From SAR202 cluster bacterium (GTDB lineage: Bacteria > Chloroflexota > Dehalococcoidia > Lucifugimonadales > GCA-2712585): DNA of 51,227 nt. Made by a program: the position numbers and the translations under genes. Location: contig VGZZ01000014.1 in assembly GCA_016872285.1 (NCBI GenBank), positions 1 through 51,227 of the forward strand. The letters are read 5' to 3'. A model generated the notes under the pieces. It saw only the letters and a program-made list of their open reading frames with translations, had not been told where the DNA came from and did not search any database. Shown here in pieces: positions 19,149 to 44,302 of this stretch (position 1 is its first letter; every line of letters begins with the position of its first letter).

Positions 19149-21029
19149 CTACACCTCCTGGGAGGATATCACTACCACGTTCCCGTCCACTGTCAGCAGC
19201 ACCCGCACTCTGATGACGCTTCCGTCCGGCGCGGTCACCTCAATGTCGTAGAGGGACCCCGCGAGGCCTCCCTGGGTCACCGCCGCCACAATCTCATCGA
19301 TGAGGTCCAGAAACGCATTAAAGTCTGTGGCGTAGAAGACGTGGTCTTCGTCCGGCTCGCTGGCTATGGCGTTAAGCGAGTTAATAGATATGTCGTCTAT
19401 GCCCACGGCAAAAATCCTGGCCCCACTGGCCGTTGAAGCGTTCTCAATGTCCGTAAGACTGTTGCCGCTGTTGTCGTCCCCGTCGGTTAGAAAGACCATC
19501 AGGTTGGGAATTCCCGGCCGGTCGCCCAGCCCGGTGTTGTACTGCGCCGTTCCACCCGTGAGCCCCGCCACCAGGTTGGTCTCGCAGGCGATGAAGTAGC
19601 CGGTATGGACCAGCGCGCCGCCGTCGCTGATTGCCGAGGGCGCGGCGACGCGGGCAGCCCAAGTGTTGGCCGCGATGTCGTAACGCCAGTGGGTGGTCTG
19701 GGCGGTCCCGCGGACTGCGTAGATATAGGTCCCGTCAAAGGCCAGCCCACCGCCTCCGGCGCCGCCCGTGCCCACCGCCGATGGGGCGGCCGCCAGGGTA
19801 GTCCACGTGTCCGCGCCGATGTTATATCGATAGAAGGTGGTGGAGTTGTTGCCTCGAAGGGCGTAGATATTGGCGCCGTTATAGACCAGGGCGCCGCCAT
19901 CCCCTATGGCTGCGGGAGACGCTGCCATAGACGTCCAGGAGTTACCGGCAATGTCGTAACGCCAGAAGGTGGTGGTGTTTGCGCCCCGCAAGGCATAGAT
20001 GTGCGTACCGTTGTAGACCAGGGCGCCTCCTCCCACTCCGCCCGCGCCCACCGCGGCCGGCGCCGCCGACATGGAAGACCAGGTGTTGTTCGTAATATCG
20101 TAGCGGTAGAAGCCCGTACCGTTATTCCCCAGAAGCGCGTAGATGTACGACCCCGCGTACAGCAACGCGCCGCCCGTGCTTACGGACGCCGGCGTATTAG
20201 CCATGGCCGTCCAGGTATTGGCCGTGAGATTGTAGCGCCAGAAGGTGCTGGTGGCTGCGCCGCGCAGCGCGTAGACGTAGGTCCCATCGAAGGCCAAGCC
20301 ACCGCCGTCCCCCACCGTGGCCGGCGTGGAGGCCTTGGTATTCCACTGGTCGTTGGGTATGTCATACTGCCAAAAGGTGGTAGCGCTGTTGCCGCGCAGG
20401 GCGTAGTTGTAGTAGTAGTAGTTGGCGAGGCAGGTAAAGAGGGAGGTGCTGGTGAGGCCATTGATGCCCGCATGAAGATGGTCATCACTGTTGGCCACAT
20501 CCACTACAGGCCGGCTGAACCGCCCGAACTTAGTCAGACCAATTCGGTAACGCTCCGAGTTCACGTCCAGGTTGAAGCCGTCCACAATGGCGTTGGCCCC
20601 GTCCTTGAACACGGTCATCTCGCTGCTGCTTATGCTGGAGCTCACGTCGATAACCAGCGATATGTCCGCAAAGGCGTACTCGGTCAGGTAGCCGGGCAGG
20701 TTCGACGGCTGGGACGCCAGAGTCACTGTCACAGGCACCATATAGCTATCGCATGGAACGTCATAGCTAACGGTTGGGTTTTCCGGCGTCAGGCTGTCGA
20801 CGAACCCCGCTTCGTACTGAAGCTTCCACAGGGTGTACTCCACGCCGGCGGCCCCGCACGCGCCGCCCCTGAGCCCGTCCCCCGCCTTCCGCACCGCCAG
20901 CAGCGATGTCTGAACGTGGATGAGGTAGGGAACCAACAGCAAGGTAGTGAACATCAAGCCTATGAGGCCCAGGGTTAACGCGGCGTAGCCCCTCTGGCCC
21001 GCGAGAAAGCCTTTAAGCACGCGTATCAT
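19149..21029 (-). CDS. VWA-domain surface protein with a Kelch propeller inserted into the VWA domain
   Basis: A 626-residue protein with an amino-terminal membrane segment (YAALTLGLIGLMFTTLLLVP, residues 15-34) of the kind seen in PilX/Tad-like minor pilins, then an extended region with Cys pairs. The VWA domain starts near 122 with the MIDAS motif DVSSS (D128). After LTSTSLFTCLANY (about 203) it is interrupted by six near-identical repeats of 44-48 residues (209-480), each YALRG..(T)TFWRYDI...W..M...P...(G)DGGALVYNG. VWA then resumes at ACETNLVAGLTGG with PNLMVFLTDGDDNSG and continues to about 590. It is last in a three-gene operon, 17 bases after a prepilin gene, so it is probably exported or assembled with a pilus. 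The role may be adhesion. Confidence 0.88.
   Translation of the reverse strand: MIRVLKGFLAGQRGYAALTLGLIGLMFTTLLLVPYLIHVQTSLLAVRKAGDGLRGGACGAAGVEYTLWKLQYEAGFVDSLTPENPTVSYDVPCDSYMVPVTVTLASQPSNLPGYLTEYAFADISLVIDVSSSISSSEMTVFKDGANAIVDGFNLDVNSERYRIGLTKFGRFSRPVVDVANSDDHLHAGINGLTSTSLFTCLANYYYYNYALRGNSATTFWQYDIPNDQWNTKASTPATVGDGGGLAFDGTYVYALRGAATSTFWRYNLTANTWTAMANTPASVSTGGALLYAGSYIYALLGNNGTGFYRYDITNNTWSSMSAAPAAVGAGGVGGGALVYNGTHIYALRGANTTTFWRYDIAGNSWTSMAASPAAIGDGGALVYNGANIYALRGNNSTTFYRYNIGADTWTTLAAAPSAVGTGGAGGGGLAFDGTYIYAVRGTAQTTHWRYDIAANTWAARVAAPSAISDGGALVHTGYFIACETNLVAGLTGGTAQYNTGLGDRPGIPNLMVFLTDGDDNSGNSLTDIENASTASGARIFAVGIDDISINSLNAIASEPDEDHVFYATDFNAFLDLIDEIVAAVTQGGLAGSLYDIEVTAPDGSVIRVRVLLTVDGNVVVISSQEV
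19590..20405 (-). repeat. Six tandem Kelch-like coding repeats
   Basis: Units start at residues 209, 253, 297, 345, 389 and 437 of the VWA protein. Units 3 and 5 carry an extra four-residue Gly-rich insert (GGVG or GGAG). The paired aromatic and Gly-Gly positions (YALRG, WRYD, NTW, GGALVY) fit Kelch blades, and six copies would close a propeller. The units are more alike than is usual for Kelch proteins, which suggests recent duplication. Confidence 0.85.
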
Positions 21030-21046: not shown

Positions 21047-21586
21047 TTAAGCGAACCGAAGGTAAAAATAGTGGGTGAACTGCCGGCTGATGTCCCCCCA
21101 AACAGCGCTGTCTGACGTCACCGTTACCGTGACGAGCCTCCCCTGAAGCGACACCGTCATCTCGCCGACGTTCCTGGCCACAACGTGGGTGGCGCCGTCG
21201 TACGTACGCCGGACTTCCGTTCCCGTCAGGGCATAGGAAGCACTATGGCTAACGGCGGCTTCCTGATATTCGTCCGTCCAACTCAGGACCACGCAGGAGG
21301 CCGGCGAGGCAGAGGCGCAGGAGACGGCGGGCCCTCCATCTACCAGGTTGGTAGTCCTGGTCATCCTGAAGTCCCTGGCCAGCCGCTGCATGGATGTCCT
21401 CAAGTCGGCCTCGGCCGTCAACTGCGCGAACCCTCTGGACGTGTTGGTCTGCATCTGGTGGACGCTGCGCGTTAGACCGGACCCGATGATGGTGATTATG
21501 CCAACTGCTACCAGCACCTCCGCCATGGTGAATCCCCGGCGGCCTCTCAAAAGCCTTTTAACCAATCCCATCCTGAATGGAATCAT
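21047..21586 (-). CDS. Prepilin-type protein, PilW-like
   Basis: A 179-residue type IV pilin-like protein. The prepilin cleavage motif is RGFTMAEVLVAVGIITIIGS: Gly before the cut, Phe at +1 and Glu at +5, followed by the hydrophobic helix. The rest (LTAEADLRTSMQRLARDFRM, then a Cys-containing beta region) resembles PilW/GspJ-type minor pilins. The start ATG (21586) overlaps the upstream gene's TGA as ATGA; a longer upstream frame is a shadow of that gene. Confidence 0.85.
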   Translation of the reverse strand: MIPFRMGLVKRLLRGRRGFTMAEVLVAVGIITIIGSGLTRSVHQMQTNTSRGFAQLTAEADLRTSMQRLARDFRMTRTTNLVDGGPAVSCASASPASCVVLSWTDEYQEAAVSHSASYALTGTEVRRTYDGATHVVARNVGEMTVSLQGRLVTVTVTSDSAVWGDISRQFTHYFYLRFA

Positions 21587-21975
21587 CGATTTACCTTGAT
21601 TCCCCTCATCCGGGCGAGAGACTCGCCATCTCTGGATACGGTCACTATCACATACTCCATGTTTGTGTCCGCCCCTGGGAACGTCTCCGCCGACGCGGTG
21701 ACGATGTACCCCGTAGGCACGCTGATGACGCTGTAGCTGCATGGCGGAGGGCAGTAGGCGGCGTTTAGGGCGTACTCCATCTGGGAGCGGGCAATGTTTT
21801 GGGCGGTATTGACGTCATGCACCGTTCCGGTAGCCTTGCTCCCCACGGACACTCCGTAAACGGCAGCCGATAGTACGGTGACCAGGAGGGCGACTGCGAT
21901 GAGCGACTCCAGCAGGATGCTCCCTTGCTGGCCGTTAACGAGCTTTTGTATATGGCGCCGCGCCCTGGCTGTCAT
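21583..21975 (-). CDS. Prepilin-type protein, PilV-like
   Basis: A 130-residue minor-pilin-like protein and the first gene of the operon. QQGSILLESLIAVALLVTVL is the prepilin motif (Gly, then Ser at +1, Glu at +5) with its hydrophobic helix. Later it has AQNIARSQMEYALNAAY, the recurring PilV/GspI-type pattern, and two Cys (CPPPC). Genes for the pilus motor or prepilin peptidase are not in the window. Confidence 0.8.
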   Translation of the reverse strand: MTARARRHIQKLVNGQQGSILLESLIAVALLVTVLSAAVYGVSVGSKATGTVHDVNTAQNIARSQMEYALNAAYCPPPCSYSVISVPTGYIVTASAETFPGADTNMEYVIVTVSRDGESLARMRGIKVNR

Positions 21976-36631: not shown

Positions 36632-36739
36632 AACTAAGTGGAACATAAATCCTTAGCGTAACGAATTTTATTTTGCCACCCATTTCGTGACTTTCCCCCT
36701 TGAAATACTAGTTGGCAGTTGCTATTGTCGGCCTGTCAG

Positions 36740-38113
36740 ATGCAAGAAAAGATTATGGAAACCAGGGAACATCAAGCACGGGCCATTTGGTCTGCCGTGC
36801 TGGGGGAGCTGCAGTTACAGCTCCCACCGTCGTCTTTCGAGACGTGGCTGAAGGGGACTGAGGGGGTGGCGGTGGACGGACAGCGGCTGCTGGTGCGTGC
36901 GCCGAACGCCTTTGCGGCAGAGTGGCTGGAGAAGCGGCTGCATGCGCTGGTATCCAGGACGATTGAAAAGGTGAGCCGACAGGCGCTAGAGCCTTTCTTT
37001 CAGGTCCGCCCCACAGCGGCTAGTGAGATGGAGACGGAGAGGCCCCAGGGGAGCCAAGAGGGGGGTTCGCCGTCGCAGTGGGCAGAGCCGCCGCAGTTCA
37101 AACCGAACCGCCGCTATACATTTGATTCCTTTGTGGTGGGGCCTTCGAACAGGCTGGCGTTTGCGGCGTCGAAGGCGGTGGCGGGGACGCCTGGGGAGAG
37201 CCACAATCCGCTGTTCATATATTCGGGAGCCGGTCTGGGGAAGACACATCTGCTCCATGCCATAGCCCATTCCTGCTTGCAGCAGCGGATAAGGTTCCTT
37301 TACGTGACCTCAGAGCATTTCACCAACGATTTTGTAACGTCGGTGCGGGAGAAGGCTATGGACCAGTTCCGGTCTAGGTACCGGGGCGTGGACGTTCTGC
37401 TGATGGACGACGTGCAGTTTCTGAGCGGGAAGGAGCAGACGCTGGAGGGTTTTTTCCACACCTTCAACGACCTGCACAACAGCAACCGACAGGTGGTGAT
37501 CACGTCAGACCAGACGCCGCAGTCGATACCGGCTATAGAGGAGCGGCTGCGGTCCCGGTTCGCGTGGGGACTTATCGCGGACATACAGCCGCCTTCGTCG
37601 GACACTCGCGTGGCCATACTGGAGGCCCGCGCCAGGGAGATGGGGATTGGGGTAATGAGAGATGTGCTGGGGTATATTGCGCAGCATATAAATGGAAGCG
37701 TTCGAGAGCTGGAGGGGGCGCTGAACCGGACGGTGGCGATGGCGCGGGCGGAGGGACGCGAGCCGCACCTGGAGATGGCGAAGCAGGCGCTGCAAGGGCT
37801 GGAGTGCCAGGCCCGTATGACACCTAGGACGCCGGAAATGGTGCTGAGGGCGGTGGGAGAGGTGTTTTCCGTGCCGCGGGAGGAGCTGCTAGGGAAGAAG
37901 CGGCACAAGGAGCTGGCGCTGGCGCGGCACGTGACGATGTACCTGCTACGGCACGAGTTAGACTTAGAGGTGGCGCGGATAGGCCGGGTTCTGGGCGGAA
38001 AGAACCACGCGACGATTCTTCATGGCATTGAGAGGGTAACGGCGGAGCTGCCTGGCAACGCGCTGCTTAGGGAGAGGGTGGAGGCTACGAAGGCGGCGCT
38101 GGGGAGGTCGTAG
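36740..38113 (+). CDS. dnaA: Chromosomal replication initiator protein
   Basis: AAA+ ATPase that opens the origin. From ATG 36740 (MQEKIMETREHQARAIWSAV; an ATG at 36755 is possible) it has 457 residues. Domain I is at about 10-85 (LPPSSFETWLKG) and a linker follows. Domain III has Walker A GAGLGKTH and Walker B LLMDDVQFLSGKE, and domain IV has the helix-turn-helix and signature VLGGKNHATILHGIERV. In many relatives the signature reads GGRDHSTVLH; this one has KNHAT in its place. It is divergent from fmt and upstream of obgE. GC skew does not reverse here. Confidence 0.96.
   Translation: MQEKIMETREHQARAIWSAVLGELQLQLPPSSFETWLKGTEGVAVDGQRLLVRAPNAFAAEWLEKRLHALVSRTIEKVSRQALEPFFQVRPTAASEMETERPQGSQEGGSPSQWAEPPQFKPNRRYTFDSFVVGPSNRLAFAASKAVAGTPGESHNPLFIYSGAGLGKTHLLHAIAHSCLQQRIRFLYVTSEHFTNDFVTSVREKAMDQFRSRYRGVDVLLMDDVQFLSGKEQTLEGFFHTFNDLHNSNRQVVITSDQTPQSIPAIEERLRSRFAWGLIADIQPPSSDTRVAILEARAREMGIGVMRDVLGYIAQHINGSVRELEGALNRTVAMARAEGREPHLEMAKQALQGLECQARMTPRTPEMVLRAVGEVFSVPREELLGKKRHKELALARHVTMYLLRHELDLEVARIGRVLGGKNHATILHGIERVTAELPGNALLRERVEATKAALGRS

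Positions 38114-42328: not shown

Positions 42329-44302
<1,974 letters not shown>

Follow-up and report, generated by a model that had tools for sequence, protein, structure and literature searches.

Pilus proteins that carry a VWA domain have been described in several systems. CpaL is a Tad minor pilin of Caulobacter crescentus whose VWA domain is predicted to lie in two segments, residues 148-203 and 384-626 (PMC12607857). The insert between them, residues 204-383, appears in AlphaFold3 predictions as two six-stranded beta-barrels that project away from the MIDAS (PMC12607857). PilB of Streptococcus sanguinis is a minor type IV pilin and an adhesin, and its VWA domain has a functional MIDAS flanked by arms (PMC8179133). 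The VWA tip adhesins RrgA, GBS104, and Mfa5 have two such elements, ARM1 and ARM2, inserted around the MIDAS (PMC7893114, PMC7835359). A VWA domain and a beta-propeller occur together in PilY1/PilC, a pilus-tip protein encoded beside minor pilins (PMC13190605). In integrin alpha subunits with an I domain, a seven-blade propeller accommodates the VWA domain between its blades 2 and 3 (PMC12422189).

The window, meaning the whole 51,227-nucleotide stretch of SAR202 cluster bacterium DNA analyzed here, encodes a pilin-like protein in which a Kelch propeller interrupts a VWA domain. The gene is one open frame of 626 codons on the minus strand and is single-copy in its own genome. It stands last in a three-gene minor-pilin operon, directly after a PilV-like and a PilW-like gene, so that the pilin-operon assignment made in a sequence-only reading of this DNA is upheld by the two prepilin-like genes that precede it. 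The features of the operon are as follows.

21583..21975, minus strand: PilV-like prepilin, 130 aa (ComGE at 0.00062 and N_methyl at 0.15, both below the cut-off)
21047..21586, minus strand: PilW-like prepilin, 179 aa (N_methyl PF07963, 1.6e-5)
19149..21029, minus strand: whole Kelch-VWA gene, 626 aa, with a pilin-like N-terminus, a VWA domain interrupted by a Kelch propeller, and C-terminal beta strands (open frame and Pfam)
20682..21029, minus strand: pilin-like N-terminal module, residues 1-116, with helices 16-50 and 56-72 and strands 86-93 and 96-104 in the model (profile and model)
20433..20681, minus strand: N-terminal half of the VWA domain, residues 117-199 (VWA profile positions 3-85)
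20634..20648, minus strand: MIDAS DxSxS motif, DVSSS, residues 128-132 (residues read)
20430..20432, minus strand: Cys200, upstream neck of the insert, absent from the ortholog G046
19584..20423, minus strand: inserted segment, residues 203-482, about 280 residues (G046 ortholog and VWA profile)
19590..20405, minus strand: six Kelch blades, residues 209-480, starting at 209, 253, 297, 345, 389, and 437 (repeat analysis; closed propeller in the model)
19584..19586, minus strand: Cys482, downstream neck of the insert, absent from G046
19278..19592, minus strand: C-terminal half of the VWA domain, residues 480-584 (VWA profile positions 81-184)
19578..19580, minus strand: MIDAS Thr484, two residues past the end of the insert (residues read)
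19482..19484, minus strand: MIDAS Asp516, in TDG (residues read)
19152..19256, minus strand: C-terminal strands, residues 592-626, which may rejoin the pilin sheet (weak evidence from the model and a profile score of 2.0 bits)

Farther upstream of the operon are truB, rbfA, infB, and nusA, the last three named by eye from their translations, and downstream is a tRNA-Lys gene on the opposite strand. A 457-aa frame on the plus strand (19605-20978) runs antisense to the Kelch-VWA gene and is probably an effect of GC-rich third positions. Elsewhere in the window, a Na+/H+ antiporter frame at 14330-15220 matches only profile positions 145-374 of 374, and the portion before that may be missing or frameshifted. 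The dnaA and gyrB genes (36719-38113 and 42329-44275) lie about 5 kb apart or less, so the origin region may also fall within the window.

Pfam recognizes the VWA domain (PF00092, 1.2e-20) in two stretches with Kelch between them. All five MIDAS residues (D128, S130, S132, T484, and D516) are present, and metal binding at the site is predicted from them. The earlier description of a single VWA domain, with its DVSSS half and its C-terminal half parted by repeats, therefore holds. A 185-position VWA profile made from eight relatives, with the window protein left out, matches the intact protein as two contiguous halves (48.9 and 108.7 bits). Once residues 203-482 are removed, the same profile gives a single continuous match over positions 3-184 at 167 bits, in keeping with the proposal that the flanks join into an ordinary VWA domain without the repeats. 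Among the 98 relatives searched, the nearest ortholog, G046, has a single 352-residue frame that matches the window protein twice, at residues 1-195 and 478-625. The protein encoded there, 344 residues long, shares 45% identity with the window protein over residues 1-201 and 57% over 478-625, and a short loop stands where the window protein has roughly 280 extra residues. The G046 gene likewise stands third after PilV-like and PilW-like genes, with other neighbors around the operon; this order is found in G046, G211, and G215, and G211 supplies a second VWA relative that has no propeller. The insert ends two residues before T484, which, by the element order of the model, places it in the loop between alpha2 and alpha3 of the VWA domain. 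Cys200 and Cys482, which flank the insert, are the only cysteines of the window protein not shared with G046.

The VWA pilin of G215 was considered as a case of a different insert in the same loop and was rejected, as its profile split falls at 67/68 compared with 81-85 in the window protein; the split and the alignment place its insert in an earlier loop, before alpha2. This 842-aa protein (L050, 3812-6340) has a non-Kelch insert of about 180 residues, a DUF11-type stretch, and Ala at the MIDAS Thr position, and its structural model reached a pLDDT of 49.8, too low for use.

An AlphaFold2 model of the window protein was built on a nine-row alignment (pLDDT 72.4, pTM 0.47), with residues 1-55 mostly below 50 and both necks below 50. 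Four of six candidate alignments placed VWA rows wrongly on Kelch columns and were not used; the model was built on one of the two that did not, and the way its VWA halves pair therefore owes something to this choice of input. The order of elements is a pilin-like helix, two strands, VWA beta1-alpha1-beta2-beta3-alpha2, the propeller, VWA alpha3-beta4 to alpha6, and three strands, so that the VWA elements on either side of the propeller follow the canonical order. Together with G046 and the contiguous VWA profile, this order supports insertion of the propeller into the VWA domain rather than a tandem fusion, and the question of whether the repeats were inserted or appended is answered in favor of insertion. 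The propeller is closed in the model (residues 206-476) and superimposes on designed six-blade Kelch proteins with Z 35 and an rmsd of 1.5 Å over 257 residues. It matches Keap1 with Z 34 and in Keap1's register. Keap1 and the designed SAKe6 share the six-blade Kelch fold and strand register of these residues at only 18-24% sequence identity, and their propellers are not known as extracellular pilus modules. All top rows of the fold search were propellers, and the search is hence uninformative on the VWA fold; a viral fold library returned generic Kelch matches only.

As modeled, then, the six-blade Kelch propeller is shown to be complete and closed, and Pfam finds Kelch (PF01344) in the protein at 2.1e-13. 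The count of six repeats of 44-48 residues over 209-480 is reproduced exactly, with a 4-residue extension in blades 3 and 5. The further suggestion that the blades are nearly identical and recently expanded does not survive comparison. Pairwise identity between blades is 39-66% for amino acids, 55-70% for DNA, and 39-59% at third codon positions, and two of the six blades (b1 and b4) find their best match in another protein when compared with 113 other blades. Recent expansion was rejected on both counts.

How rare this arrangement is was assessed at several taxonomic levels. VWA-bearing members of the window's pilin family occur in 4 of 250 genomes of the order (the window's own genome G000, G046, G211, and G215), and 13 further genomes match the N-terminal module only; six genomes of the same family have no match to this pilin family. 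None of the other order genomes has a propeller inside a VWA domain. Across the class, 10 of 294 genomes match the window protein at E<=1e-10, and the nine besides its own have Kelch-only, VWA-only, or N-terminal stretches. A search of the class with the VWA-pilin alignment matched 11 of 393 genomes, and none but the window showed one VWA domain in two halves. Among 350 genomes of the phylum, only the window's own carries the Kelch-VWA fusion. A pattern scan of the GTDB collection with the window protein alone gave 17 candidate stretches, none confirmed, and the scan with the alignment gave two relatives (Chloroflexi bacterium casp150-mb.221 and SAR202 cluster bacterium Casp-Chloro-G3); neither yielded another copy of the fusion. 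The lack of a second copy in the phylum, order, and GTDB searches, and a genome fragmented into 83 contigs, are what one would expect if a Kelch fragment had been joined into the VWA gene during metagenome assembly. Such an artefact would not readily leave both junctions in frame, six blades that close, and all five MIDAS residues in place. Third-position GC is also alike across the N-flank, insert, and C-flank (0.79, 0.81, and 0.77), and the genome has no other Kelch gene of this family to be confused with (one match in G000). We consider an assembly artefact very improbable: the fusion is real, it is an insertion, and its parts are well conserved.

The propeller has relatives nearby. Related Kelch propellers were found in 12 of 250 order genomes (17 rows, E<=1e-15, with a weak G060 row at 7.5e-19). 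The window propeller is the only one inside a VWA domain, and several others are appended to prepilins. By N-terminal pattern, 5 of the 17 rows share a frame with a prepilin signal, in four proteins (G025, the PilV-like protein of G089, G186, and G214, the last with two propellers); three of the four were scanned by profile, and all three showed N_methyl. Two more rows (G089 and G231) have a PilX-like N-terminus by eye, the G041 protein is membrane-anchored, the G102 protein has another N-terminal anchor, and the starts of the remaining rows are truncated or not resolved. In G089, the PilV-like and PilX-like genes of one operon (L055, 3201-4448 and 5568-7211) both end in a Kelch propeller. The class genome G335 has two prepilins with propellers, one of them with several: a 1412-residue frame (L061, 2767-7002) has at least four propellers and Thr-Pro linkers, and the adjoining 536-residue frame (L061, 7166-8773) has one. 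In G102 the propeller belongs to a protein (L100, 5419-6747) whose N-terminus is of archaellum type (FlaF/archaellin-like) by eye; archaella have reportedly been described in SAR202.

In a 24-row tree, the window propeller groups with that of G290 (99/95) and then with G419/G439 (95/94), all of which are secreted, non-pilin proteins. The G419 propeller starts at the YALRG strand, as the window's does, and the pilin-appended propellers start one strand earlier. The G419/G439 propellers were themselves considered as domain insertions and rejected, since in proteins related to the C-terminal flank it is other domains that immediately precede this flank; a family-level search found no propeller-free version of the G419 protein. 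Judged by these sequence relationships, the Kelch propeller module is local to the lineage. Because the lineage repeatedly attaches this Kelch family to pilins, the insertion is probably a re-use of a local surface-binding module. These cases suggest that SAR202-type Chloroflexota repeatedly decorate pilins with Kelch propellers, and we found no report of this in the open-access literature.

The N-terminal module links the protein to pilins by a profile of 10 non-VWA relatives, which matches window residues 9-110 at 80.7 bits. There is no Pfam match to N_methyl or PilX_N (PF14341) at E<=1, the putative prepilin cleavage site has no Glu at +5, and helix 16-50 is predicted with pLDDT mostly below 50; the label PilX-like reflects operon position only. 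The 10 relatives that share the module (L019, L020, L021, L022, L024, L027, L031, L008, L009, and L040) are operon-end proteins with other middle domains, identified as DUF11 by profile in L008 and as DUF11-like or lectin-like by eye in others. This sharing suggests that the window gene is a modular tip-type gene. The pilin-sheet profile scores 13.1 bits on the C-terminal strands of G046 and only 2.0 bits in the window protein, and for that reason a triple nesting, in which these strands continue the pilin sheet, is left as a suggestion.

The genome of the window is 95.56% complete, and its only T2SSE match (1.1e-63) is the CpaF-like ATPase of a Tad cluster (G000:C52, L101); a PilB ATPase was not found in this assembly. 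A PilD-type peptidase is present (PF06750, 2.1e-29, C3:94510). Long PilB-like matches to T2SSE turned up in all nine relatives searched (best E 1e-115 to 1e-124), and in five of them (G211, G215, G214, G231, and G186) a T2SSE-family ATPase is on the same contig as a VWA- or Kelch-bearing pilin. The pilB gene may lie in the few percent that the assembly lacks, or else the operon works with a different type 4 filament. If the latter, the minor pilins would be tips of a Tad pilus or pseudopilus rather than of a type IVa pilus, which would fit a genome whose only detected ATPase is of the CpaF/TadA type and would agree with CpaL, the closest published architecture, being a Tad minor pilin (PMC12607857). 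The N_methyl signal of the PilW-like partner, the PilD-type peptidase, the PilB-like matches in every relative searched, and the incompleteness of the assembly point the other way, and we regard this assignment as unlikely.

An adhesive function at the tip is likely, and we think it fairly probable that the protein is a modular minor pilin acting as a pilus-tip adhesin, to which the propeller adds a second ligand surface. That the adhesion domain sits at the end of a pilus-like fiber, as had been suggested from the sequence, is plausible given the gene's place in the operon and the parallels with PilB, CpaL, and PilY1. The N-terminal helix would anchor the protein in a tip complex formed with the PilV-like and PilW-like proteins, and the VWA MIDAS would make a metal-dependent contact with a surface. 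With the propeller in place of the short loop that immediately precedes the MIDAS threonine, the metal site would have an outsized arm next to it, with a role like that of the MIDAS arms of RrgA, Mfa5, and PilB, and this arm could set specificity as the second ligand surface. A disulfide between Cys200 and Cys482 probably clamps the neck of the insert, so that pulling force on the pilus would reach the VWA domain and the junction would not unravel. Several findings weigh against the adhesin proposal: no PilB match in a genome that is 95.56% complete, an N-terminus with no N_methyl or PilX_N match and no Glu at +5, modest confidence of the model, and nearest tree neighbors on secreted, non-pilin proteins.

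The same features can be read in terms of force rather than binding. The protein could be a mechanosensor or pilus-priming subunit whose VWA domain changes shape under tension to regulate assembly or retraction, with the propeller as a bulky handle. PilY1 and CpaL act in priming and surface sensing, and a disulfide matters in PilY1 (PMC13190605, PMC12607857); two cysteines flank the insert here. An intact MIDAS and a family of propellers on several pilins also fit binding, and we give this role only a small chance. The existence of orthologs without the propeller (G046 and G211) and the low confidence of the neck residues in the model would suit an insertion that is tolerated but does nothing, the VWA domain working alone. 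Six complete and diverged blades with conserved Kelch residues in an open frame, and paired neck cysteines, suggest selection instead, and an idle propeller seems improbable. A bolder reading, and a doubtful one, is an "inverse integrin" in which the Cys200-Cys482-clamped propeller is coupled to the VWA domain and its ligand, or pilus force, switches the MIDAS between affinity states. If so, the pilus tip would be gated by force or by ligand, through a nesting that is the reverse of that in integrin alpha subunits.

Searches of the open-access literature for Kelch with VWA returned only unrelated work, as did those for Kelch with type IV pili (PMC10580974); both are weak evidence of absence. 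A further literature search led to S. sanguinis PilB and to a paper on PilY1 of Myxococcus. PilY1/PilC is not a pilin and has its domains in tandem, with an N-terminal VWA domain in some members and a separate, C-terminal, seven-blade PF05567 propeller. The window protein has no PF05567 match at E<=1, and its propeller is Kelch and internal. Integrin alpha subunits, as described, also nest a VWA domain and a propeller, in the reverse sense. Were the propeller and MIDAS coupled, the protein would offer a simple bacterial model of propeller-VWA communication, so far studied in integrins. RrgA and GBS104 are reported to have a 9-residue loop atop alpha2, roughly at the site of the window propeller; they and Mfa5 differ in pilus type, in their small arms, and in having the main arms in other loops. 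S. sanguinis PilB has, by its report, a VWA domain on a minor pilin and arms flanking a functional MIDAS. The likeness to CpaL goes furthest, with a pilin-like module and one VWA domain with a MIDAS, interrupted by a beta-rich insert, and a proposed tip position in the published account. By residue numbers, the split in CpaL comes about 40 residues past its DxTxS motif, and that in the window protein about 70 residues past DxSxS, right in front of the MIDAS Thr; the insert is a Kelch propeller here and two beta-barrels in CpaL. The design was rightly called unusual from the sequence, but CpaL is an earlier published case of beta domains inserted into the VWA domain of a minor pilin (PMC12607857). 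A full propeller in the MIDAS-threonine loop widens the known ways of re-tooling a pilus-tip VWA domain, and the propeller-free ortholog G046 provides a natural before/after pair. The kind of protein is known from PilB and CpaL; the identity of the insert as a propeller and its site in the MIDAS loop appear to be new.
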